Source: a bacterium
GTDB lineage: Bacteria > Armatimonadota > UBA5829
DNA length: 50,520 bases
Direction of reading: 5' to 3'
Assembly: GCA_021373255.1 (NCBI GenBank)
Contig: JAJFTD010000068.1
Coordinates: 1-50,520 of the forward strand
The translations under genes were made by a program, and so were the position numbers. The notes beneath the pieces were generated by a model. That model was given only the letters and a program-made list of their open reading frames with translations. It had not been told where the DNA came from and did no database searches. This document shows positions 3 to 23,732 of the stretch, in pieces (position 1 is the first letter of the stretch; each line of letters opens with the position of its first letter).

Positions 3-1688
3 ATTAACCAAATTGGTTATCATCGTATAAAGCTACCGCAAGGGGTGTCTGTGTCAGAAGCCGTTCAGCGATTTAAGAACAATCCCGCTGTGGAGTATGC
101 AGGGCCTAACCACGTAATATCAATCTGCCTTGAACCTAACGACGAATACTTTCTTGACCCCTATATTGGCTGGTATTGGCAGTGGGGATTGTATTCGGAT
201 TCTTATCCCGATGCCGGAATAGATGCCCCAACGGCATGGGATATCACCACAGGTAACAGCAATATTGTTGTTGCGATGGTCGATACCGGGCTTTATACCG
301 GTCATGAGGACATCAACGGTAAGCAAGTCCCTGGAATAAATGTCATTGCCGGTGACAATCCATCAGACATCAGCGATGGCCACGGTCATGGCACTTTTAC
401 TTCGGGTATTGTGGCAGCCAATACGGATAATACTGTCGGCATCGCCGGTGTAAGCTGGGGCGCAAGGATTATGCCTATTAAGGCGCTGGATTCTACGGGT
501 TATGGCTTGGAAGATGACGCTGCAGCGGGAATTATTTGGGCAGCGGACCATGGCGCAAAAATCATCAACATGAGCATAGGCGGCTATGACAATATTCCGG
601 CTGAGCAAGCCGCCTGCACTTACGCGTGGAACAAGGGCTGCGTGCTGGTGGCGGCTAGTGGCAATGAAGGCGTAACAGATCTATTTTACCCTGCGTGTTA
701 TGATGAGGTGCTGTCGGTTGGGGCGTCCAACGAATACGCCGAGAGATGCACCGATGCGGATTGGACGGAGGGAGGGAGTAATTACGGCTCTTACCTCGAT
801 GTCGTAGCACCAGGCGGTTCTTATTCCAATGGCATAATGAGCACATGGAACGATGGCAGCTATGAAATGCTCTTTGGAACATCTGCCGCAGCACCGTTCG
901 TGTCCGGTATTGCTGCTCTGGTGTGGAGCAAGTATCCAACATGGTCAAACGCACAGGTGGTCGAGCAGATAAAAATGAGCTGTCGCGATATCAATACTGT
1001 GGGTTGGGATCAGGAGACAGGTTGGGGGCTGGTAAATGCTTACCGGGCGCTGGTTAATACACCGTTGGCGGGCCATAGAATTGGTGAGCTAAACTCCACT
1101 GCCGATGGGACAACAATAAAAGTAGATGGCGCAGTAATAACAAGTGGGAGCACCGATTTTTCTGACCGCCTGTACGTTGAGCAAGACGACAGGGCGTGCG
1201 CAATTATGCTCCCGTACACGTCTGTTCCCATAGGGTTTGCAGAGGGGGATGTCGTAGAGGTTACCGGCACTCTCTCAATACAAAAGGGTGAGCGAGCAAT
1301 TAAGGGTGCCACGATCACAAAGACTTCGCACCAAACTCCCATGAAGCCACTTGGCGTGCAGACACGATACATCGGAGGTGGCACACTGGGCTTTAGGCCT
1401 GGCGCGACCAACGGCCTGGGAATGAACAATGTCTCACTTCTGGTCAGCGTGTGGGGCAAGGTGACCGCAGTCGGCTGGACTTATTTCTATATAGACGACG
1501 GATGCCATCTGGAAGACGGATCAGGAATGTCAGGCCTCAGGATAGCTACCGGCAGCTTCAACAAGCCCATTAAAGGGTCATATGTCCGCGTTACAGGGAT
1601 ATCCAGTATAGAACAGCCGGATGGGACGACACTGTCCGTGCCTGTAGTCCGCGTGCGACGGCAGGGCGACATCGTGGCTGTTAACTGA
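3..1688 (+). CDS. Secreted subtilisin-like serine protease (S8) with C-terminal tandem module, 5' end outside window
   Basis: The frame is open from the left edge, so the N-terminus is missing. The first visible ~40 residues (IGYHRIKLPQG, then FKNNPAVEYAGPNH) look like the end of a fervidolysin/I9-type propeptide. Counting from the first codon in the window, the S8 triad is intact: Asp94 in AMVDTG, His129 in GHGHGT and Ser294 in GTSAAAP, with oxyanion Asn221 in ASGNEG. The protease domain ends near residue 355. The last ~200 residues form a separate, probably beta-rich module (YIGGG, NNVSLLVSVWGKV, final RRQGDIVAVN). The same module ends the large repeat protein at 20535-23456. It is probably exported, but the signal peptide lies outside the window. 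A GTG at 45 is only an internal start candidate. Protease assignment is firm; substrate is unknown. Confidence 0.93.
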   Translation: MNQIGYHRIKLPQGVSVSEAVQRFKNNPAVEYAGPNHVISICLEPNDEYFLDPYIGWYWQWGLYSDSYPDAGIDAPTAWDITTGNSNIVVAMVDTGLYTGHEDINGKQVPGINVIAGDNPSDISDGHGHGTFTSGIVAANTDNTVGIAGVSWGARIMPIKALDSTGYGLEDDAAAGIIWAADHGAKIINMSIGGYDNIPAEQAACTYAWNKGCVLVAASGNEGVTDLFYPACYDEVLSVGASNEYAERCTDADWTEGGSNYGSYLDVVAPGGSYSNGIMSTWNDGSYEMLFGTSAAAPFVSGIAALVWSKYPTWSNAQVVEQIKMSCRDINTVGWDQETGWGLVNAYRALVNTPLAGHRIGELNSTADGTTIKVDGAVITSGSTDFSDRLYVEQDDRACAIMLPYTSVPIGFAEGDVVEVTGTLSIQKGERAIKGATITKTSHQTPMKPLGVQTRYIGGGTLGFRPGATNGLGMNNVSLLVSVWGKVTAVGWTYFYIDDGCHLEDGSGMSGLRIATGSFNKPIKGSYVRVTGISSIEQPDGTTLSVPVVRVRRQGDIVAVN

Positions 1689-2542: not shown

Positions 2543-3292
2543 TTAATAGCTCGGTGTAAAGTATGGCTGCGCTCTAGTCGCATAACTGCCCCTTAAGAAT
2601 CTCAGAGCCTCGGGACTTACCCACCCAGGAGGTGGAGGAAATCCAGGGCCATAGTTCATAACATATGTGTCACTACCGGCAAATGTCACAGGTGGCCAGC
2701 CATACATAAACCGCAAGTTCCCAGCTTGGTAATAAGGCGGAGGATAACCATAGGCTGGTATTCCCCCACCCTGCTGTCCATAATATACAGGAGCCTGCTG
2801 ATTCACAAACACCTGATTCTGCGAATTGCCTTGTGGCGCAGGCTGAGCAGCGGGAGCTTCCGCGATCTCAGCCGCGGGTGGCTGTGCCGCTTGTGGTTGA
2901 ACTGCGCTCGGTTTCGTACCAGAGACAGCAACTGGAACCGCCTTTATAGGCTTGGATTGTTTAACCGGATTTATGACATAGACGCCATCCTTCACCGTAT
3001 AGGTAAGTTCCGCGGCGTCTGTTAATGCCTTCAATGCTTGCTCAAAGGTCACGCCCCTGAGTTTCAACTCCACGATTCTGCCGCTAACTCCCGGCAAAAT
3101 CTGGTATTTCAACCCCCGTCCTTCAAACAGGGCGGCTATTCCCTCATCTATTGGGACATTTTTGAGTTCAAGGTTCACCGTCGACGCATTTACTTGCGCT
3201 GGTGTATCCCCCTGTGCGTATAACGTCACAGGCGCGGTCAAAATAACCGCAACCGCCATAAGAGCAAACCCAGCCATTCCTATTTTTAACAT
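2543..3292 (-). CDS. Secreted STN-domain (secretin/TonB short N-terminal) protein
   Basis: 249 residues. Residues 1-27 are a signal peptide ending ...TLYAQG. Residues ~38-110 match the STN fold found at the N-terminus of secretins and TonB-dependent transducers: VNLELKNVPIDEGIAALFEGRGLKYQILPGVSGRIVELKLRGV in short blocks, then FEQALKALTDAAELTYTVKDGVYVI. The rest is an Ala/Pro/Gln linker and a Tyr/Pro/Gly-rich tail, with no secretin channel or TonB barrel. It may act as a periplasmic adaptor for a secretion or transport system encoded elsewhere. It lies 140 bases downstream of the envC-like gene on the same strand and has its own terminator. Confidence 0.75.
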   Translation of the reverse strand: MLKIGMAGFALMAVAVILTAPVTLYAQGDTPAQVNASTVNLELKNVPIDEGIAALFEGRGLKYQILPGVSGRIVELKLRGVTFEQALKALTDAAELTYTVKDGVYVINPVKQSKPIKAVPVAVSGTKPSAVQPQAAQPPAAEIAEAPAAQPAPQGNSQNQVFVNQQAPVYYGQQGGGIPAYGYPPPYYQAGNLRFMYGWPPVTFAGSDTYVMNYGPGFPPPPGWVSPEALRFLRGSYATRAQPYFTPSY

Positions 3293-3432
3293 TCTGACGC
3301 CCCCCTCTCCGGCCCGGACTAGGGGCCAATGTTCATCCTATCAACATTATACCCCAGATTTAGGCCAACAAGCGTGGGAGCTTTACATTTTAAGTTATGC
3401 GTTGCGCGTTAATGCGTTTTGCGCTGATGAAT

Positions 3433-4581
3433 TTACAACGGGTTTACGGGGGTGCCGTTTACGCGCTTTTCGAAGTGGCAGTGTGGGCCAGTGGAGTAGC
3501 CAGTGCTTCCTGAACGAGCGATTACATCGCCACGGGAAACCTTTTGACCGACTCGGACCAGTACTCTTGAATTGTGACCATAGAGGGTTGATACGCCGCC
3601 GCCGTGGTCGATAACGACTGCGTAGCCATACGCGCCCATCCAACCGGCGAGGATAACTTCACCATTTGCCGCCGCATGTATCTGTGTACCGGAACGAACA
3701 CCAATGTCAACACCAGTGTGCAGTTTGTATACATGGGTGACTGGATGGACCCTGTAGCCGAACGTTGAGGTGATGCGTCCCGAGCACGGCAAAGATAATC
3801 CGCCTCTGAACGCGCGTCTCATTCTTGCACGTCCGCGCGGGGTGCGCTGTAAACTCTGAATCCTCGAGGCAATGGCACGGGACTGCGCTTCCAACTCGTC
3901 GAGCGCCCGCTCCATCAGATCTTTGCTGTTCTCGATCTGGTCAAGTATATCCCGCTTGGAATCGGCAAGACTTACAATCTGGTCGCGTTGGCCGATCAAC
4001 TGCATCTGCAGATTAGCAATCTGAGATACACGCTGCATCTGATGTCTCTTATCGGCCTCGATAGCTCTCTTATCTGATTGAATCTGGCTAATGAGCTCTG
4101 TATCAGAGTCCAATATCTGTTGCAGATAATATGCCCGCGTGAGGAATGACCACATATCGGTCGCGCCCAGAACAACGTTGAGGTAGTCCATCCTCTCGCC
4201 CTGGTAAATATCAACCACACGCCGCCGTAAAAGCATCTCGCGTCTGGCAAGCTGCCGCTTTGTCCGCTCAAGCCGCCGAATGATTGCATCTAAATCAGTT
4301 TGTGCATCTAGTAGCCTCAACTTGTTATCTGAGAGCTTGGACTGTGTTTTCTGCAGTTTAAGGTCTGTAGAGCTCAGATCAGCCAACACACTGCGCTGCT
4401 GGTGTTCCTTTACCTTTATCTCTTTCCGGAGATTCCTTATCTTGCTCTGGACAGATCCGAGGTCTGATCTCAACTTACGGGAGGATGTACGCGCAGCCAT
4501 AACCGGCGACACTGATATCAGCACCGATGCGATAAGAATAATCGCCGTCGACCTAGTTTTAGATGCAAAAAAACTCAGCAT
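3433..4581 (-). CDS. EnvC-like murein hydrolase activator, M23 (LytM) domain
   Basis: Signal peptide (residues ~1-30), then ~200 residues of heptad-like coiled coil (LGSVQSKIRNLRKEIKV..., LTQ/SKLSDNKLRLLDAQ), then a LytM domain over the last ~108 residues. Counting from the ATG at 4581, all usual metal/active-site residues are present: His288 and Asp292 in HTGVD, His336 in YGH, and His367/His369 in PHCHFE. The domain might therefore hydrolyse peptidoglycan itself, unlike E. coli EnvC, which lacks these residues. A TTG five codons upstream (4596) is an alternative start. It sits 39 bases downstream of ftsX, the expected ftsE-ftsX-envC order, where FtsEX would drive its activity at the septum or side wall. 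Confidence 0.88.
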   Translation of the reverse strand: MLSFFASKTRSTAIILIASVLISVSPVMAARTSSRKLRSDLGSVQSKIRNLRKEIKVKEHQQRSVLADLSSTDLKLQKTQSKLSDNKLRLLDAQTDLDAIIRRLERTKRQLARREMLLRRRVVDIYQGERMDYLNVVLGATDMWSFLTRAYYLQQILDSDTELISQIQSDKRAIEADKRHQMQRVSQIANLQMQLIGQRDQIVSLADSKRDILDQIENSKDLMERALDELEAQSRAIASRIQSLQRTPRGRARMRRAFRGGLSLPCSGRITSTFGYRVHPVTHVYKLHTGVDIGVRSGTQIHAAANGEVILAGWMGAYGYAVVIDHGGGVSTLYGHNSRVLVRVGQKVSRGDVIARSGSTGYSTGPHCHFEKRVNGTPVNPL

Positions 4582-4620
4582 AAAAAAGATACTCAAAGAA
4601 ACAGAACGGGATAATGCAGG

Positions 4621-5499
4621 CTAATCGGTCAGGAACCGCCTGATCGACACCATACTTCCGACAGCTCCTATCGCTGCGCCGGTTATCACGAGGTATACTG
4701 CCAAAGCCGAAGGCTCGACACCACTAGACGCACGTCCGAGCAGTGGGGTAATCCTTTCCACCGCATGCGCAAGATACATAGAGCCCAATCTCAACAAACA
4801 CCATGCAACCAGTGCGCCAGCCGTGCCAAACACAATACCTTCTATAAATAGAGGAAGCCTGATGAATCGGTTTGTGGCGCCTACAAGCTGCATAATGCGT
4901 ATCTCGCGCCGCCTTGCATAGAGCGTGAGCCTGATGGCGTTGCTGATAATGAATGCGGTGGTCACGAGCAGCATAATAGCCCCCGCAACACTTACAATAG
5001 ACACAACTTTTGCCACTGCCATCACTCTGTGGAATGTCTCCCGGCCCTCAATCACCGTATCAACACCGCCCAGCACGCGGACTTTTGATGCAATTGTCGG
5101 GAGCTTGTTTGGATCGGAGACTTTGACATCCATAGCATAAGGTAGCACATTAGTAGGCAAACCTGCTGAATCGATATTCGGATGCTGCCTCTTAAAATCA
5201 AGCCATTCCTGGTCACGGTCACGCACTTCCACACTGCCCACACCAGTCATCTTTCTAATTTGGCTGGCAACGTCATCAGTACGTGATCTATTAGCTTCGC
5301 CCCTCATAAAGACCGCTATCTGGAACTGCCCGATCTGGGTTCTGGCGAAATGCGTAGCTCCAAGGGCCGCCATGACAAATGCACCCAGCACTCCGAGTGA
5401 GAGGGCTATTGTGGATATCGACGCAAAAGCCATAAGGCCATTTCGCCATATCCCTGTAAAGGATTCCTGTATAATAAATTCGACATTCCTAAGCTTCAC
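4621..5499 (-). CDS. ftsX: Cell division ABC transporter permease FtsX
   Basis: Typical FtsX plan: a short cytoplasmic N-terminus (FIIQESFTGIWRNG), TM1 (FASISTIALSLGVLGAFVM in two halves), a ~120-residue extracytoplasmic domain, then three TM segments in the C-terminal half with the cytoplasmic YARRREIRIMQLVGAT loop that contacts FtsE. I place the start at GTG 5499, overlapping the ftsE stop by 11 bases, with AAGGGG upstream. A GTG at 5529 would add ten residues unlike the family. With FtsE it should form the type VII ABC mechanotransmitter that controls the EnvC-like protein encoded next. Confidence 0.93.
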   Translation of the reverse strand: MKLRNVEFIIQESFTGIWRNGLMAFASISTIALSLGVLGAFVMAALGATHFARTQIGQFQIAVFMRGEANRSRTDDVASQIRKMTGVGSVEVRDRDQEWLDFKRQHPNIDSAGLPTNVLPYAMDVKVSDPNKLPTIASKVRVLGGVDTVIEGRETFHRVMAVAKVVSIVSVAGAIMLLVTTAFIISNAIRLTLYARRREIRIMQLVGATNRFIRLPLFIEGIVFGTAGALVAWCLLRLGSMYLAHAVERITPLLGRASSGVEPSALAVYLVITGAAIGAVGSMVSIRRFLTD

Positions 5500-6178
5500 A
5501 GTGTTCGTACATCCCCTTGTTAACGTCACGGACCACCACGCCGGCCTCCAGTTGGATGACCCTCTTCTTCATACGGTCCACAATCTGGCTATCATGCGTA
5601 GCAACAAGGACAGTGGTCCCACGAACGTTGATCTGCTCTAAAAGCTGCATGATCTCCCAAGACGTCGCAGGATCGAGGTTACCGGTGGGTTCATCGGCAA
5701 TCAAAAGAGTAGGATGGTTGATAAGTGCTCTGGCAATAGCAGCTCTCTGCTGCTCACCACCGGACATTTGATGCGGGAACGAATCACAACGATGGGTAAG
5801 GCCGACCAATTCCAGCACATCACCGATTCTTCTGCGAATTTCTCTGGGGTCGGTCCCAATTACTCGGAGGGCAAATGCCATATTCTCCCAGACATTTTTC
5901 TGTGGGAGGAGCTTAAAGTCCTGAAAGACTATCCCCAGCTTGCGGCGTAAATACGGTACAGCCGACGGTTTTAGGCTTGTAATATCCTCTCCATCAACAA
6001 CAACCTTGCCTTGGGTGGGCAGCATTCCGCGGTAGAGAAGACTTAGAAAAGTGGACTTACCACTACCAGTGGAGCCCACTAGAAAGATAAATTCACCTTT
6101 ATATATAGAAATACTAACGTCCTTGAGGGCTCGCACCCCATTAGGGTACTCCACAGAAACGTTTTCTAGATGTATCAT
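5489..6178 (-). CDS. ftsE: Cell division ATP-binding protein FtsE
   Basis: 229-residue ABC ATPase with Walker A GSTGSGKST, the Q-loop in FQDFKLLPQ, signature SGGEQQR, Walker B LLIADEPTGNLDP and H-loop ATHD. The frame stays open for another 110 codons upstream, but that extension is low-complexity and unlike any FtsE. ATG 6178 (MIHLENVSVEYP) has AGGTGAT just upstream and fits the family length. It energises FtsX and so septal peptidoglycan hydrolysis. It is transcribed divergently from the lptF/G-type gene. Confidence 0.95.
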   Translation of the reverse strand: MIHLENVSVEYPNGVRALKDVSISIYKGEFIFLVGSTGSGKSTFLSLLYRGMLPTQGKVVVDGEDITSLKPSAVPYLRRKLGIVFQDFKLLPQKNVWENMAFALRVIGTDPREIRRRIGDVLELVGLTHRCDSFPHQMSGGEQQRAAIARALINHPTLLIADEPTGNLDPATSWEIMQLLEQINVRGTTVLVATHDSQIVDRMKKRVIQLEAGVVVRDVNKGMYEHCEA

Positions 6179-6300
6179 ATCACCTGTTCCTCGTGAACCA
6201 TTATAGCCCATCACTGCAGGAGGGTGCAAATCTTTCGAGACAGTCGAAACAGTCGAGCGTCTTGCGTCACGCGTCATTATCTGTTGTCTCTTCGTCTCTT

Positions 6301-6335
6301 TTTCGCGTTTTCGCTCCTTCGCGCTGTCGCGATTA
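6301..6335 (+). repeat. Dispersed TTTCGCG-rich repeat, copy 1
   Basis: 35-base intergenic stretch (TTTCGCG...CTTCGCGCTGTCG) matching 31 of 35 positions with the reverse complement of 30113-30147. It lies in the ftsE / lptF divergent gap; a partial related copy is at 30347-30380. Confidence 0.6.
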
Positions 6336-6371
6336 GAACACTCGCGATTGCCTTGGATCGAATAGATTTCC

Positions 6372-6400
6372 TTGGCTCGCACACGTTGACGTGTTATAAT
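6372..6400 (+). promoter_or_regulatory. Sigma-70-type promoter of the lptF/G-lptD genes
   Basis: TTGGCT at 6372-6377, 17-bp spacer, perfect TATAAT at 6395-6400. Initiation would fall near 6407, giving a leader of only ~10 bases before the ATG at 6417. Confidence 0.65.
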
Positions 6401-6416
6401 CGAAACGAGCGCAAGA

Positions 6417-7496
6417 ATGAAGACACTTGATAAATACGTTGCCAGGGAGATGCTGGTTCCTTTCTTTGCCGGTTTTTCGGTGGTGCTGGTTCTCCTCATC
6501 GGTAACATAATTTACAATAATATCGCAATTATAGTGAGCCGAATTCAGCAGTGGCCCAGTCTGCTGTATTACATTTTGCTCCAAACCCCTTATTTCGTCT
6601 TGCTCGCGCTGCCCTCGGGAGCTTTGTTCGGATGTTCACTTGCGATCAGCAGGCTTACACGCGACAGCGAAACGACAATGATGCGCATGGCTGGTATAAG
6701 TGTGATGCGCATTTTTCTTCCTATCTTTGTGTTCGGGTTCCTAATAAGTATGGTTGCCTACGTATTTCAGGAGAAGGTGACTTCGTGGGCAGAGAGCGAA
6801 AGCACGCGAGTACTTCGCAAACTTTGGCTGGCGCCAGGTCCGCCGCCTGTGGAAGCGAATGTGTTTTTCAAGGCGGAAAACTGCTACTTCTACGTAAACA
6901 CCGTTGAGCATCACGGCAATAAGCTCCAACTCGGAGATGTTATGGTCTACGAGCCACCAGTGGGGAAAGGCTTTCCCACGCTTACCACAGCGAAATCCGC
7001 CTCTGAGGATAACCATGTATGGATGCTTTACGATGGGGTCACTTATCGAGTTAACAGAGATGGTGATCCTGAGCTTATCGGCCATTTCAAGAAGATGAAA
7101 CTTGATCTCCGGCAGGCCATTTCCGATTATATAAAGCAGCAGCAGAAGACTCCCAAGGGCATGACCATAGCCGAACTGCGAGGAGAGATGGGTCGGCTCG
7201 CGAAAAGCGGACTCAAAACTGATACCTATCAGCTCGAATATGGATATAAGTTGGCAATCCCGCTAAGCTCACTTGTACTGCTCTTCTGCGTAGCGCCTCT
7301 CAGCCTGCGATTTGGACGTGGGGGCGGCTTTATGGGCGTGCTCATCGGAATAGGCGTGCTGTTCTTCTATTGGAATGTCATACTCTTCAGCCGGGTACTC
7401 GGCGAGACCGGAGGTCTACCGCCTGTAATTGCCGGATGGAGCGAGGTTATTATCTTCACTGTGCTCGGCGCTGTGCTTATGTGGAAGGTAGAATAG
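6417..7496 (+). CDS. LptF/LptG-family LPS export permease
   Basis: 359 residues with the YjgP/YjgQ arrangement: an N-terminal MKTLDKYVAREMLVPFFAGF block, three TM helices in the first ~120 residues, a ~150-residue periplasmic beta-jellyroll-like domain, and three C-terminal TM helices (PLSSLVLLFCVAPLS, GVLIGIGVLFFYW, EVIIFTVLGAVLM). The family forms the inner-membrane part of LptB2FG, which extracts LPS and feeds the Lpt bridge. Only one such gene is here, so I cannot say whether it is F, G or a homodimer. The lptD-type gene follows after 56 bases. Confidence 0.9.
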   Translation: MKTLDKYVAREMLVPFFAGFSVVLVLLIGNIIYNNIAIIVSRIQQWPSLLYYILLQTPYFVLLALPSGALFGCSLAISRLTRDSETTMMRMAGISVMRIFLPIFVFGFLISMVAYVFQEKVTSWAESESTRVLRKLWLAPGPPPVEANVFFKAENCYFYVNTVEHHGNKLQLGDVMVYEPPVGKGFPTLTTAKSASEDNHVWMLYDGVTYRVNRDGDPELIGHFKKMKLDLRQAISDYIKQQQKTPKGMTIAELRGEMGRLAKSGLKTDTYQLEYGYKLAIPLSSLVLLFCVAPLSLRFGRGGGFMGVLIGIGVLFFYWNVILFSRVLGETGGLPPVIAGWSEVIIFTVLGAVLMWKVE

Positions 7497-7552
7497 GCTC
7501 GCAAGCAGAAGTTTATAAGAGTGGTTGATTCACTTGAGAGGTTTGTTCTGCA

Positions 7553-9943
7553 ATGCGGGCTATCTTGTATGTGGTGATGCTGGCTTGGGGAGTTGTTGGG
7601 ATACCTTGCGCTTGGGCGCAGGATCAGCCCGCAACAGCCGTACCTGCGCCGGACAACACACCTGTGTTAGCACCCGCCCCAGTTACCGAGGGGCCAATCC
7701 CACCCGCTCCGCAGCTCACTGTGCCGGTCCCCGAACAGGCAATCCCCGGTCCTATTAAACCGTCTGAACCACCAACCGATTATACCACGCCGCCAACCGC
7801 GCCTCCAATACCCGTGCTACCTGAGAATTTCATCAATGTTTCAGGAGATTCCGTGAGGACGCAGCTCGAAGAAGGGCAAGCGGTGCTTACTGTCGCTCAG
7901 GGAAATGTCCGGGCGCATTATCGTAATATTATCATAACGGCCAACAGCGGTCAGGTTGATTATAGAACAAACATTGCCACGTTCCAGGGTAATGTCGTTT
8001 TCAGGATTGACTCTCAGGAGGTCTACGGAAACCAGATCAGCCTCAATCTTGAATCAGGTGAATGGACCAACGAAACCGCTAGTACTATGATTACGCCGGA
8101 ATATGCAAAAGGTTATCTGCGAGCACCTGTTTTTGCCAGGGCGAGGACTATCCAGGGATACAGACGCCGCTGGATTATCCTGCAGGGAGCTGAGGTCACT
8201 ACATGCAACCTGCCAGTGCCGCACTATGACCTTGTGGCGCGAACGGTGCAGATATTCCCCGGCAGCAGGATCATACTGCGCAATGTGACTTTTTATGCGC
8301 TCGGCCACAGGATATTCAGCCTGCCTCGACTAGTCTTTCCGCTGCGCCAGATTCAAAGACGCACGAACCTCATTCCTAATGTCGGTCAGACGCAAGAGGA
8401 AGGGTTCTATCTGAAGACTTCATACGCCTACCAGGCAACCCAGACTCAATCCGGGTTGTTGAACCTGGACTTGATGAGCAACAAGGGGTTCGGACAGGGT
8501 ATCCGGCAGGATTATACCTTAGGAAATGGAACAGGCGAGCTGCGGCTATACCACCTGTTCGATCAAAATATAAATGAGCAAACATTCACCGGCCACCTCA
8601 ATCATGGTCAACAGTTTGGCACGGTGAAGTTTAATCTGACTTCGGATCTCAGGTCGAATAGCTACTTATACGCTCCTCAAAGCACATCACTCACTAATCA
8701 GGCAACATTCACACGAAACAGAGGCACAGCTAACACGTCGCTGGTCCTGAGCGAAAATATGAATGATGTGTTTTTGCGAACCTCGAACATGAATGGAATC
8801 CTGCGGCACACCCAATTGTTCGGGAAAGACACTGTATGGGATACTAACTTCGACTACACATCATATAACGGTGTCACAGACACAGCACGGCTTAACTCGA
8901 AAACCAGCTTTGCCGTTAGAGAAGATAAGTTTGATTGGACTTTGTCGGCACAGCAATTGACCGATTTGAGTGATGAGGCTTTTGTGGGCGGGGGAGGGTT
9001 CGGCGGAATTAATACCCTGCCTGAAGTTGCTCTCGCGTCGGATACAACAAGATTGGGGCGTGTGCTTCCATTCGGACTACCTGCGCAATTGAAGTTCAGC
9101 GTAGGAAACTATGCCGAGCTTCCGACAAGTGATTACATCGGTAGGTCGTTCTTTGAGATTGACACACCCGTAAACCGCCGTCAGATAGGCGGCGGCTGGG
9201 CATTGTCAGGAGGCGCTGGATTCAGGCAGTATGTATATAGCGATGATACAGCCCAATACTCTGTAGATACCAGCGCACAGTTGAGAAAAGATATTGCTCC
9301 GGACTCGTCAGTCACCCTCACATATCGCTTTCAACGCCCCCAGGGGTTCACACCGTTCAGATTTGATTATGTGCCCAACTACAACATAATTAACGGTGCC
9401 CTGAACATCAAAGAGGGCCAACGGTTCAAGCTGAGCTTGTTGAGTGGCTATAATTTTCAGCAAAAACAATATCCCTGGCAGGACGCTACGCTCAGGTTTT
9501 CAGTCCAACCGACAAACAGCCTGATGTTATACACATCCACGGGATACGACTTTAACAACTCTCGCTGGCGCAACTTGATCAACCAGGTGCGTATAAGATC
9601 CAGCAAAGACTTCAAGCTGGACATAGGCACAAACTACAACACCACCCAGAGCAAACTCGCAACCGCTCGCGCACAGCTCGATACCAAGGTGGGCAGCAAA
9701 AATCGCGTGCAGGCAGTGGCTGGTTATAACGGATTTACAGGCAAGTTTGACTACCGTAGCTTTAGAATCACCCGCGACCTGCACTGTTGGGAACTGTCGG
9801 TAATATACACCAATCAGTCTGGATTCTACGAAGACCAGGGAATCAGGATCAACCTGAGAATTAAAGCGCTGCCGCTGTTCGAGGACTTCGGAGTCGGTGC
9901 ATTCGGGCAGGCGCTGGATACCAGTGTGGGCGAGGTTTATTAG
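7553..9943 (+). CDS. lptD: LptD/OstA-family LPS assembly outer-membrane protein
   Basis: 796 residues, close to the usual LptD size. Residues 1-22 are a signal peptide (...CAWAQ). A Pro-rich linker follows to ~residue 90, then an OstA/LptA-like jellyroll at ~95-180 with repeated GNV strands (AQGNVRAHY, FQGNVVFRI). The rest is a long run of alternating beta strands typical of an outer-membrane barrel (VTLTYRFQRPQ, FKLSLLSGYNF, MLYTSTGYDFNNS). ATG 7553 has GAGAGG 11 bases upstream. It should receive LPS from the Lpt bridge and place it in the outer leaflet. Its stop overlaps the stop of the convergent PEP-CTERM gene. Confidence 0.87.
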   Translation: MRAILYVVMLAWGVVGIPCAWAQDQPATAVPAPDNTPVLAPAPVTEGPIPPAPQLTVPVPEQAIPGPIKPSEPPTDYTTPPTAPPIPVLPENFINVSGDSVRTQLEEGQAVLTVAQGNVRAHYRNIIITANSGQVDYRTNIATFQGNVVFRIDSQEVYGNQISLNLESGEWTNETASTMITPEYAKGYLRAPVFARARTIQGYRRRWIILQGAEVTTCNLPVPHYDLVARTVQIFPGSRIILRNVTFYALGHRIFSLPRLVFPLRQIQRRTNLIPNVGQTQEEGFYLKTSYAYQATQTQSGLLNLDLMSNKGFGQGIRQDYTLGNGTGELRLYHLFDQNINEQTFTGHLNHGQQFGTVKFNLTSDLRSNSYLYAPQSTSLTNQATFTRNRGTANTSLVLSENMNDVFLRTSNMNGILRHTQLFGKDTVWDTNFDYTSYNGVTDTARLNSKTSFAVREDKFDWTLSAQQLTDLSDEAFVGGGGFGGINTLPEVALASDTTRLGRVLPFGLPAQLKFSVGNYAELPTSDYIGRSFFEIDTPVNRRQIGGGWALSGGAGFRQYVYSDDTAQYSVDTSAQLRKDIAPDSSVTLTYRFQRPQGFTPFRFDYVPNYNIINGALNIKEGQRFKLSLLSGYNFQQKQYPWQDATLRFSVQPTNSLMLYTSTGYDFNNSRWRNLINQVRIRSSKDFKLDIGTNYNTTQSKLATARAQLDTKVGSKNRVQAVAGYNGFTGKFDYRSFRITRDLHCWELSVIYTNQSGFYEDQGIRINLRIKALPLFEDFGVGAFGQALDTSVGEVY

Positions 9944-10566
9944 CCCACTGCTTTTCTGCGGTTGTGTTTGAACGCTACGGTGCCGGTTAGGCCAAGAATC
10001 AAGATGCCAAGGCTGCCTGGCTCGGGGACGAACCATCCATCCACTTGTACACTCAAAGGCATGCCTAAATATCTCCATGTCTGGCCATAGTCGCCGCTGC
10101 CTAAGCCTAAATATGCTGCGCCTGGTTTATATGCATAGGACACTGCACCGCTGAAGCCGTCACAGTTCGGGGTGATCACTAGAGCGTATACTTGATTTGC
10201 GCGTAATAAAATCGGTGACTCCGCCTCACCATAATAATAAGTGGTAGCTGTGCCCGTGGGTGTCAATGTCCAATGAGCAATGGCGGATGATGGGACATTA
10301 GAGAGAGTTGTGGTGAGATAGACATCAAACCCTGCACCGGGGATATAATTCATACGATATAATGCAGTGCCGAATCTGGTTCCGTAGGCATCGCTGTTCA
10401 GCATAAACCGAGCGGCCGCCCAAGTTGTCGTTGAATTATTAGTTAATATCGGACCGTTACCTGTAGGCGATCCGCCATCATAAATCAGCGCATGGCATGG
10501 TGCCGCGTTCAGTAGAAGTATAAGTAATGGTAGAAAACCAATCAAGCGGCGGGTTTTATTCGGCAT
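9940..10566 (-). CDS. PEP-CTERM secreted protein
   Basis: About 208 residues: signal peptide MPNKTRRLIGFLPLLILLLN..CHA, a beta-rich middle with Asn/Thr-rich segments, and a C-terminal sorting signal of VPEPGS, hydrophobic helix LGILILGLTGTVAF and basic end KHNRRK. Proteins of this type are processed by exosortase (EpsH); no exosortase gene is in the window. ATG 10566 has AGGAAA seven bases upstream, so the longer frame starting at 10629 is rejected. Body function is unknown. Confidence 0.85.
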   Translation of the reverse strand: MPNKTRRLIGFLPLLILLLNAAPCHALIYDGGSPTGNGPILTNNSTTTWAAARFMLNSDAYGTRFGTALYRMNYIPGAGFDVYLTTTLSNVPSSAIAHWTLTPTGTATTYYYGEAESPILLRANQVYALVITPNCDGFSGAVSYAYKPGAAYLGLGSGDYGQTWRYLGMPLSVQVDGWFVPEPGSLGILILGLTGTVAFKHNRRKAVG

Positions 10567-10622
10567 TTTGTGTTTCCTATGTAGTAGAAGTTGATTTCCA
10601 GGGACTACTATGTGCAATTTTC

Positions 10623-10652
10623 TTGCCATACTGTCCAGCTCTCTGATATAAT
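10623..10652 (+). promoter_or_regulatory. Promoter of the pspA operon
   Basis: TTGCCA (10623-10628), 18-bp spacer, TATAAT (10647-10652) preceded by TGA, i.e. an extended -10 (TGnTATAAT). It lies ~80 bases before the PspA start. Confidence 0.65.
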
Positions 10653-20534: not shown

Positions 20535-23456
20535 TCATTTTATTACGACTATATCCTCTTGTTCTCTGAGCCTTATAGCGCGGCTGATCGTGCCGCCATT
20601 TGCATCACAGGTGCTGATGCCGGTTATAACTACGAACTTGCCGGTGAGAGGCTGCGTAAGTGTGCCGCTTTTAACCTTAACGTTTGTGCCTGTCGATACT
20701 TCTATGGTGAAGCTATTGGCTCCATTAGCCACCACTTTTCCCCATGTAGTAATGAGCAAGCCGATGTTGTTCGCGCCATAGCCGCCTGTAATGCCAGGAG
20801 TGTAGCTGTTTAGCTTACCACCACCGATCCAGTCACCCCTGATCCCAATGGCACGAAGCGGGTCTGATGCAACACCCAAAGCTGTGGATTCGCTTGCGTT
20901 TATCTGCCGTTCACCATCGCAGACAGACAACGTGCCCATTACATCCACCAATGTACCAACGACAGCATCTTCGCTAGAGACGACTTTAATTCCGCTGGAT
21001 CTGTCCGACTCCTCAATATAGAAGAACCCTGGGAATACTGCCGTCACTATCTTTCCACTCAACCTAACCAAACTACCTGCGGGGAGATCTTTTGCAACAG
21101 ATATTCTATCGACCTCCTGAGTCTCCTGATCAGTGAGCGTGACGGCCATCGTGCAGTTGACAAAATTATTGAGCCTGGAGTAAAACAGCATCCCTGAGCC
21201 AAACACACGCGGTTTGAGCTGTGGATACATGTCGGATACCAGAGCAGTCTCTGGAGAGGCCACAACCGCTCCATCAGCGCCAACGGTGGTGAAGTATATA
21301 TCTGAGTTGCCGTATTGGGACGATCTGTAGTCTTCCCATACAACTCGATATGCTGATCCGTTCCAGGACACACTTGGGGCGGTCTTCTGTACCGGTCCAG
21401 TGTTGATAGAAATACCATTAGTATCGAGTTTTACTCCTGCAGGCGTTATCCTGCAGCCAGAGATTGCGTAGTAGTCAGACCAGGTAACAAAGTAATTTCC
21501 CCCACCAAAGCATACATCTGGAACAGTCTGGTTAATGCTGGTGGCAGGGAAAAGAATCCCTGTAGTGTTCTGTACTACTCCCGCAGATGTTATGCTGATC
21601 CCATATATTTCAGAACTTCCGGTGGATGTGCCATTACGATAGTCTTCCCACACGGCGAAGTAGTTAGTGCCATCAGAGGCTACTCTGGGATTGAGCTGAT
21701 TTCCAGCTTTAGTATTGACTGACATAGAAGCAGGAATTGTGCCGGTGGAACTGATAATGGCGCCGTATATGTCCCTGGTATAAGGTGTGGTATTCGTCTG
21801 AATATCTTCCCATAGAACAATGAAATTGTTATTATTAGATGTAGCACAGGGGTGAACTTGGTCTTCATCATTGGTGCATATGGGTATCGTTTCCGTTGAG
21901 ATGGTGTTGAGGCTGCTATCCAGCAAATAGCCGCGTATATCGCGTGCTGTTTCTGTATAGGTTTCACTCCCCGACCATACCACGAGGTATTTCGACCCAT
22001 TCCATGCAATTGATGGCTGAATCTGGTTTCCTGCTAATTCACTTGTTATGTTCACAGGAACCTCGTTTAGCGGCTCACCAGATGCGGATATCTGTGCTCC
22101 AAGTATTTTGTTGACGCCACTAACCGGCTGAGACCACACAACGGTGTAGACATTGCCATCGAATACCACAGAATAGTCTTGCTCATTATCAAGCCCGATA
22201 GAGATGGTGGTTCCACCCTTGTTGACTACCGAGCCGCTATCGGTTATTGCTGCAGCTACCGCATCGGTATTTGAAGCATTCAGGGTGCCCCAGCCAACTG
22301 CAAACTTGCCGGAAATCGCAGCTACTCCAATGCCAGTGGACCCCGCTGTTGTTCCAGAAACTTTGATACTCACAGGGTCTAGGATTCCACCCTCTATGCT
22401 CATTCTTGTAGCTTTTACGTATCTATCCGACCGGCTTCTCCATGATACCAACAGCTTTGAGCCATCGTAAGCGACGCAGGGCATTTCATCATCTCCCGAC
22501 GCTGTACATATAGCGATTCCGCTTTTATCTACCAATGTACCAGCGTAGTTGATTCTTGCCCCATAAATATCCTTATTGATCTTGTTCACACGCATATCTT
22601 CCCAGACTGCCATGAAACTGGTGCCAATGGCGCATATCCTTGGGTTGAGCTGCGCGCCAGCCGCGCCTGCCGTGCTCCCGGCAGAAGATATCAACGCATC
22701 GGCTGTCATACGTATTCCGAGCTTAGATACGCGGCATCCATAAATATCAGTATCAGTACTATCAGAATTGCGATAATCGCGCCATATAACCATATAACTG
22801 GAGCCGTTGTATGCCAAGGCAGGAGACTCTTCATTATCGGCGTGTGTGACGATTCCATAAATCCTGCCCACAATGCCAACGCTGCTGACAGCGCATCCAT
22901 AAATATCGTTGGACGACCCCCGGGTATCCTGCCACACCACCAGGCAGCCGCTGGTGTCAGAAGCAACCTTTGGAGCTATTTGATTGGCTACCGTTCCTGA
23001 TAGTAGAATTCCACCTGGGTCCAATACTTCACCCGTGGGGCGAACTCGGGCTGCATATATATGAGAAAGCGACTCACGCTTATCTGTCCACACGACCAAA
23101 TACTCCTGCCCGTTCCATGCAACAGAAGGGTCTATCTGGTCACCATTCACAGTGCTGATAGATATTCCCATATTGTCCAGCACTTCGCCATTAGGGCCTA
23201 ACCTGCAGCCGAAGATATCGCTACCATTCTGGCTACGGGTATCCTGCCACACTGCCAGATAGCCATTTGAGCCACCGGCTATCTCCACACCATCCTGATT
23301 GCCCGGTACTGGACCATAAGTGGGGCATACCGGTGTCTCTGGTCCCACAACAGGAGCCGTGTCAGCATTTGCACGAGTCCAAACAGTTGCTAAAAGCAAC
23401 AGAAATACAATAATTGACAAAAATACGCGGCGCATGCGTTGTAAATGGGTCGTCAT
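20535..23456 (-). CDS. Large secreted protein with 13 WxD-type repeats and C-terminal tandem module
   Basis: 973 residues from ATG 23456 (GGGAGG 11 bases upstream); the frame is open 22 codons further, but that part is not a signal sequence. Signal peptide MRRVFLSIIVFLLLLATVWTRANA. I count 13 repeats of ~55 residues over ~40-745 with the form P-x-V-A-x-N-G-x-x-Y-x-V-V-W-x-D-x-R...DIYG-x-R-V, likely a multi-bladed beta-propeller. The last ~190 residues (FYIEESDRSSGIKV, GTLSVCDGERQI, WIGGG, GANNIGLLITTWGKV, REQEDIVVIK) match the C-terminal module of the S8 protease at 3-1688. Probably surface-exposed or secreted; binding partner unknown. Confidence 0.8.
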   Translation of the reverse strand: MTTHLQRMRRVFLSIIVFLLLLATVWTRANADTAPVVGPETPVCPTYGPVPGNQDGVEIAGGSNGYLAVWQDTRSQNGSDIFGCRLGPNGEVLDNMGISISTVNGDQIDPSVAWNGQEYLVVWTDKRESLSHIYAARVRPTGEVLDPGGILLSGTVANQIAPKVASDTSGCLVVWQDTRGSSNDIYGCAVSSVGIVGRIYGIVTHADNEESPALAYNGSSYMVIWRDYRNSDSTDTDIYGCRVSKLGIRMTADALISSAGSTAGAAGAQLNPRICAIGTSFMAVWEDMRVNKINKDIYGARINYAGTLVDKSGIAICTASGDDEMPCVAYDGSKLLVSWRSRSDRYVKATRMSIEGGILDPVSIKVSGTTAGSTGIGVAAISGKFAVGWGTLNASNTDAVAAAITDSGSVVNKGGTTISIGLDNEQDYSVVFDGNVYTVVWSQPVSGVNKILGAQISASGEPLNEVPVNITSELAGNQIQPSIAWNGSKYLVVWSGSETYTETARDIRGYLLDSSLNTISTETIPICTNDEDQVHPCATSNNNNFIVLWEDIQTNTTPYTRDIYGAIISSTGTIPASMSVNTKAGNQLNPRVASDGTNYFAVWEDYRNGTSTGSSEIYGISITSAGVVQNTTGILFPATSINQTVPDVCFGGGNYFVTWSDYYAISGCRITPAGVKLDTNGISINTGPVQKTAPSVSWNGSAYRVVWEDYRSSQYGNSDIYFTTVGADGAVVASPETALVSDMYPQLKPRVFGSGMLFYSRLNNFVNCTMAVTLTDQETQEVDRISVAKDLPAGSLVRLSGKIVTAVFPGFFYIEESDRSSGIKVVSSEDAVVGTLVDVMGTLSVCDGERQINASESTALGVASDPLRAIGIRGDWIGGGKLNSYTPGITGGYGANNIGLLITTWGKVVANGANSFTIEVSTGTNVKVKSGTLTQPLTGKFVVITGISTCDANGGTISRAIRLREQEDIVVIK

Positions 23457-23732
23457 AACACCAATAGCCTCCCTGATCATCATCTCCGCCATTGCACTAT
23501 ATGCCTGCCTGCGGAGAAACACAGGTGAATATACCCTACAGTTTGCTTGCTTAATCTGAAGTATGACATTTTATCCTGCAGCCGTTACTAGCTCTACCAT
23601 TAATTACACATTTATGGCAGAGCTGATCAATTTCTTTGCAACCTCAGGCGAATTCTGGCATCTATCTTGCACACACTGCTTGCAGGTGTTTGTGAATTCG
23701 AGGCAGAGTAAAGCAATGGAGGGCTTAACACT

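Follow-up and report, generated by a model that had tools for sequence, protein, structure and literature searches.

A predicted tandem OB-fold module at the C-termini of diverse secreted proteins in one Armatimonadota class, with the same distribution as exosortase and PEP-CTERM

A window of 50,520 nucleotides from an Armatimonadota genome (UBA5829) encodes two secreted proteins that end in homologous modules, each a domain of approximately 200 residues predicted to consist of two tandem OB-fold barrels with a conserved Gly/Asn-rich linker between them. The module is a lineage-specific, mobile C-terminal unit of the exoproteome in one Armatimonadota class, where computation found it on a wide diversity of carriers, nearly all of them with Sec signal peptides, and in exactly the genomes that contain exosortase and PEP-CTERM proteins. 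Paralogs in which the module and a PEP-CTERM tail are exchanged were also identified. Our preferred explanation, held with middling confidence, is that this is a retention or sorting module whose barrels would hold secreted proteins by binding. The organization of extracellular proteins in exosortase-bearing bacteria is poorly understood and the cell biology of Armatimonadota is almost unknown; one undescribed domain, carried by several tens of the secreted proteins in a genome and co-present or co-absent with exosortase and PEP-CTERM, offers a handle on both gaps.

Carriers in the window

The first carrier is an S8 (subtilisin-family) protease at 3..1688 on the forward strand (Peptidase_S8, PF00082, E=2.6e-48, residues 86-342), the N-terminus of which is lost at the contig edge because the window is the whole of contig C129. 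Its module occupies 1065-1685 and comprises a first predicted barrel (1065..1331; five strands in residues 1-89 of AlphaFold2 model m155d28d8728c, with OB matches in the PDB), a linker conserved in the family alignment (1332..1439; PLGV..IGGG..PGATNGLGMNN) and a second predicted barrel at the C-terminal end (1440..1685; model residues 126-205; SLLVSVWGKV...VTGISS...VRVRRQGDIV). The second carrier, recognized from its open reading frame, translation and a signal peptide heuristic, is a propeller-like protein encoded at 20535..23522 on the reverse strand. Its module (20538-21113) likewise has a first predicted barrel (20871..21113; strands in residues 24-90 of model m9091ea53f202), a linker conserved in the family alignment (20757..20870; IGIRGDWIGGGKLNSYTPGITGGYGANNIG) and a second predicted barrel (20538..20756; residues 129-200). 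The N-terminal part of this protein contains thirteen repeats of approximately 53 residues with the motif YLVVWxDxR..DIYG, which weakly match the TIGR04275 beta-propeller repeat and probably form two beta-propellers. The window also encodes a PEP-CTERM protein on the reverse strand (9940..10629; PF07589, 22.2 bits, above cut-off), which has a weak match, under cut-off, to choice_anch_R (choice-of-anchor R).

BLASTP aligned the two C-termini (1047-1685, forward strand, and 20538-21140, reverse strand) over 206 columns with 32% identity and 54% positives, giving 95 bits and E=4e-29. This is far beyond chance and bears out the homology that an earlier note on the same DNA had proposed; each of the landmarks that it had named was found in both C-termini. 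The note's view that the N-terminal parts are unrelated also holds, with a subtilase domain in one protein and the thirteen-repeat, propeller-like region in the other. Two points required correction: the second protein is encoded on the minus strand, in a reading frame of 20535-23522, and the S8 gene is truncated by the contig edge.

Predicted fold

Both AlphaFold2 models (pLDDT of 94.8 for the module of the thirteen-repeat protein and 92.7 for that of the S8 protease) consist of a short helix, five strands, a linker and five further strands. In comparisons with the PDB, both models matched mostly known OB domains, with Z of 10-12.7 over 76-91 residues, and the Foldseek list was likewise dominated by OB domains; the modeled barrels are five-stranded and of OB topology, which assigns them to the OB fold at superfamily level. 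The two predictions have the same strand order and the same pair of OB barrels, not different folds, and models and PDB comparison alike agree with the earlier suggestion of two OB-like barrels. When the sequence profile of the module was compared with solved structures, the closest match to barrel 1 was YgiW (1nnx, E=0.0014); an endonuclease/exonuclease/phosphatase-family protein also matched at barrel 1, through its OB domain (9sf8), and RPA14 matched at barrel 2. The consensus of a 30-sequence alignment reads DGxxVxLxGxVVTAxF..FYIExxNRxxGIxV...GxxVxxxGxLxT..GERxI...PLGMxNKxxGGG...GxNNIGLLVxxWGKV...FxIDDGSG...YVxVTGISS...PxIRxRxxxD.

Searches of Pfam and NCBIfam with both window modules returned nothing that reached a curated cut-off, and Pfam searches with 30 members gave weak matches to OB families such as RMI2, Rep_fac-A_3, tRNA_anti and BOF. 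Families of OB type were the only consistent Pfam matches, all of them weak and below cut-off, in keeping with the earlier observation that no named domain could be recognized. Within the literature covered, which took in a minority of subscription papers, none was found that connects OB-fold C-terminal domains to Armatimonadetes or exosortase to Armatimonadota, and the single paper naming Armatimonadetes together with PEP-CTERM concerns LuxI/LuxR. The tandem-OB domain is undescribed in the library models and in the literature found.

Copy number and taxonomic distribution

A search of the host genome for further copies, which the earlier note had proposed, gave 64 module matches with a single sequence and 74 matches, including both window modules, with a profile (A1) built from 30 of those sequences. 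Twenty-four of the 28 genomes from one Armatimonadota class contained 20-100 module matches each and the other four contained none, and the sampled genomes of the phylum outside this class had zero or one weak match. When 84,980 species genomes were scanned with a query profile made from a narrower set than the 30-sequence alignment, matches were almost confined to MAGs named Armatimonadetes or Armatimonadota, including UBA5829; the further matches came from a few other MAGs and one rumen Abditibacteriota MAG. A phage or plasmid origin of the module was considered and rejected, as the phage and plasmid collections yielded no match.

Position and diversity of carriers

Most modules lie at the very end of their proteins. 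In the host genome, 41 of the 51 tandem copies end 10 residues or fewer before the stop codon and 44 of 51 end within 30 residues; the 10-residue limit holds for every one of the 16 partial or single-barrel copies. Tandem copies from the named loci behave likewise: 77 of 91 lie within 10 residues of the stop, where random placement would be expected to give approximately 5%, and overall the extreme C-terminal position is found in approximately 80-85% of carriers. Seven of the 51 tandem copies in the host genome are internal, with more than 100 residues downstream, and the internal copy inspected in detail by eye (L004/L117) keeps the conserved motifs. Intact internal copies exist, and the module is therefore not a strict terminal signal. 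Signal-peptide-like N-termini, called by a hydrophobic-segment heuristic, were found in nearly all host-genome carriers with an intact start and in 66 of 81 carriers at the named loci, a set that includes some uncertain starts.

Several variants of this arrangement were observed. Downstream of internal modules (L140:4840-9111, L143, L147:934-5016 and L148, as well as L053, L055 and L077) there is often a C-terminal region of comparable length, approximately 220 residues, which in the host genome ends ...NVTGY.DNVR.GT.DGT.VYNFE. Some large secreted proteins (L118:14280-16850, L138:3055-8112, L147:5226-8429, L151, L153, L154, L155 and L157) end precisely with a version of the module that has the first OB barrel only, and two neighboring genes (L062:1-3069 and 3139-7848) each end in three whole modules in tandem. 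The second barrel also occurs as a stand-alone secreted protein, 47% identical between two MAGs (L150:13253-13729 and L100:5759-6253, both on the forward strand). In both MAGs the gene order around it is kept, with a PEP-CTERM gene, a secreted protein of approximately 285 amino acids, the lone barrel and an opposite-strand gene, the last of which is 61% identical between the MAGs and reads like an S41-type peptidase.

The carriers include peptidases of the S8, C25, C1 (papain) and M12 types, together with GH99, a GxGYxYP hydrolase, an esterase, carbohydrate-binding and legume-lectin domains, right-handed beta-helices and propellers. BLASTP comparison sorted their non-module parts into a large cluster, another of medium size, three pairs and fourteen singletons. 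Since these parts fall into so many unrelated clusters and singletons, the module is mobile, and dozens of unrelated carriers now stand behind a property that the earlier note had deduced from two. One carrier is a C25 (gingipain-type) peptidase with a propeptide, in a genome without SprA-type type IX secretion.

This range of carriers bears on one potential explanation, namely that the module is a substrate-binding domain of the ordinary kind, for carbohydrate or extracellular DNA, directed at food and not at the producer cell. Sugars, including oligosaccharides, and nucleic acids are frequent ligands of OB folds; many carriers are hydrolases, and 9sf8 is among the profile matches. However, proteases, lectins, beta-helices and propeller proteins, which have no common substrate, carry the module alike, and its presence follows exosortase and PEP-CTERM in the class. 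We regard food-directed binding as distinctly unlikely.

Co-distribution with exosortase

Exosortase (PF09721) was identified in 24 of the 28 class genomes, and the four without it are exactly the four without the module; within the class the two profiles are identical, with agreement in 24 of 24 positive and four of four negative genomes. PEP-CTERM tails (PF07589) follow the same pattern: each positive genome has 7-45 of them, and the same four of the 28 have none. Among positive genomes the module and PEP-CTERM counts are only weakly correlated (Spearman 0.41). The Fisher value for this co-distribution (5e-5) ignores kinship and is not to be taken at face value: three of the module-less genomes belong to one genus in family f1 and one to family f2, and the joint absence amounts to two independent events only. 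Of 61 genomes sampled across the phylum, 44 encode exosortase, and most of these 44 lack the module. Because exosortase is phylum-wide and the module is limited to the class, exosortase is not dependent on the module; the module accompanies exosortase, not the reverse. A distant genome (G021, 88% complete) yielded one weak match to the module and none to exosortase. Both exosortase genes of the host genome are located in exopolysaccharide-type clusters with glycosyltransferases, which also hold a Wzz-like chain-length/kinase protein or an O-antigen-ligase-like protein.

There are several potential explanations for the joint absence in four genomes. The outer-membrane secretin (PF00263), used as a control, was present in 27 of 28 genomes, including three of the four module-less ones, and a shared dependency on secretin therefore leaves the loss unexplained. 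Simple genome reduction was also rejected, since a genome of only 2.1 Mb (G077, 97% complete) keeps 31 modules and size alone is insufficient. It is possible that shrinkage of the secretome underlies the joint absence. S8 peptidases are absent from three of the four module-less genomes, and the sole S8 protein of the fourth (G056) has another kind of C-terminal region.

An extreme C-terminal bias combined with an all-or-none distribution is what a machinery-dependent signal would give, and the module might thus be a folded outer-membrane export signal, similar in role to the type IX C-terminal domain (CTD), that is recognized by a dedicated translocon passing cargo to the surface. Cargo of diverse function with signal peptides is consistent with such a signal. 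Intact internal copies and the stand-alone and single-barrel versions argue against it, as do the secretin, whose presence does not follow the module, and the outcome of searches for machinery: no candidate translocon was found, and no type IX SprA translocon was above cut-off in the host genome (TIGR04189, best match 20 bits, cut-off 200). On balance, an export signal of this kind is unlikely.

Paralogs with exchanged C-termini

When the PEP-CTERM proteins of the host genome, with tails removed, were compared with the module carriers, with modules masked, ectodomains common to both were identified. On contig C182, a 328-residue protein consists of one propeller-like domain followed by PEP-CTERM, and its gene is located approximately 20 bases upstream of the reading frame of a module carrier. 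This carrier contains three propeller-like domains, the first of which is 82% identical over 293 amino acids to that of its PEP-CTERM neighbor, and the tandem-OB module begins 8 residues after the third. Further PEP-CTERM/module pairs were found in the host genome (L181/L159, L179/L125 and L175/L148) and in other MAGs (L077, L087 and L055), in which both genes are same-strand neighbors. A similar pattern, in which homologs differ in tail, has been reported for PEP-CTERM and GlyGly-CTERM (PMC1569441, PMC3237569). The ectodomains that the pairs share are common modular ones, and domain shuffling could have produced the pairs without functional equivalence of the tails.

Overall, four of the 29 PEP-CTERM genes in the host genome directly adjoin module genes on the same strand. 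This is a modest excess over the approximately one expected by neighbor slots among an assumed number of about 3,700 genes; a uniform-placement probability of 1.6e-5 is too optimistic, as genes are packed. The gene pairs raise the question of whether the module is a dockerin-like protein-protein adaptor that docks on the ectodomains of exosortase-anchored PEP-CTERM proteins, encoded beside some carriers. Several adjacent same-strand pairs and the shared 24 of 28 profile are in favor of docking, but most modules lack a PEP-CTERM neighbor, the counts of the two correlate only weakly, as given above, and PEP-CTERM ectodomains are too varied to offer one obvious docking partner. It is quite improbable that such docking accounts for the module.

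Proposed function

The attachment or sorting role suggested in the earlier note gains indirect support from the extreme C-terminal position and signal peptides of the carriers, from the all-or-none co-distribution with exosortase and PEP-CTERM, and from the paralogs with either tail. From these patterns we infer retention at the surface or in the matrix, the kind of ligand, any role in export and any dependence on exosortase-linked exopolysaccharide. For a retention module, the carriers would be exported by Sec and would cross the outer membrane by some further route, after which the paired barrels would keep them at the surface of the cell or within the exopolysaccharide matrix. The retention step would most likely be non-covalent binding of an envelope or exopolysaccharide glycan, a PEP-CTERM-anchored partner being a less likely target. 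In favor of this reading are the exopolysaccharide clusters that surround the exosortase genes and the match of barrel 1 to YgiW, whose relative VisP reportedly binds peptidoglycan. Given the internal and single-barrel copies, a binding domain is favored over a processed terminal signal. The module route may parallel and complement the exosortase/PEP-CTERM route, with the latter serving mostly smaller relatives of the same proteins.

A broader possibility, which we advance tentatively and judge somewhat unlikely, is that an undescribed diderm surface-targeting pathway, operating alongside exosortase and its exopolysaccharide, uses the tandem-OB domain for recognition. Such a pathway would have its own receptor or translocon and would provide a second, folded-domain route parallel to PEP-CTERM for several tens of large extracellular proteins per genome throughout the class. 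The module allows annotators to predict, for an entire class, which proteins make up the surface or matrix proteome and can serve as a search profile for the missing receptor or export component, while the natural paralog pairs, with the same propeller followed by either PEP-CTERM or the OB module, allow the roles of the two tails to be compared directly.

Comparison with known systems

Among known protein families, the BOF family (YgiW/YdeI/VisP) resembles the module in having an OB fold in exported proteins, and among solved sequences YgiW (1nnx) gives the best match to barrel 1; however, BOF proteins are stand-alone, single-barrel and periplasmic. Membership of the BOF family (PF04076) was rejected, as the modules do not reach its cut-off and one of 30 matches it, with E=0.0073. 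VisP, the Salmonella relative of YgiW, has been reported to bind peptidoglycan (PMC5636140). The OB domains of RPA14, RMI2, Ten1 and Stn1 share the fold and a weak profile similarity with the module, a likeness at the level of fold, but function in intracellular nucleic-acid metabolism.

The type IX secretion CTD, found on diverse surface-displayed hydrolases such as C25-type peptidases, is folded and C-terminal, as is the module, which also has a C25 carrier. The fold of the CTD is an Ig-like beta-sandwich, in contrast to the OB barrels predicted here, and with no SprA above cut-off the module was rejected as a type IX CTD.

The PEP-CTERM/exosortase system provides another close parallel. The PEP-CTERM tag is a motif of approximately 24 residues with a transmembrane helix and a basic tail, whereas the module is a folded domain of approximately 200 residues that lacks a transmembrane segment and may also occur internally. 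The true PEP-CTERM proteins encoded by the host genome end ...VPEPGS..[TM]..RRRK; module carriers end inside the second barrel and are devoid of the motif, helix and basic tail, and the module was rejected as a form of this tag. In both systems, as described for PEP-CTERM (Haft et al. 2006, PMC1569441), there are many copies or none per genome, located at the extreme C-terminus of proteins with signal peptides, on diverse ectodomains rich in Ser/Thr/Asn and with a link to exopolysaccharide, and in this class the two are found in the same genomes.
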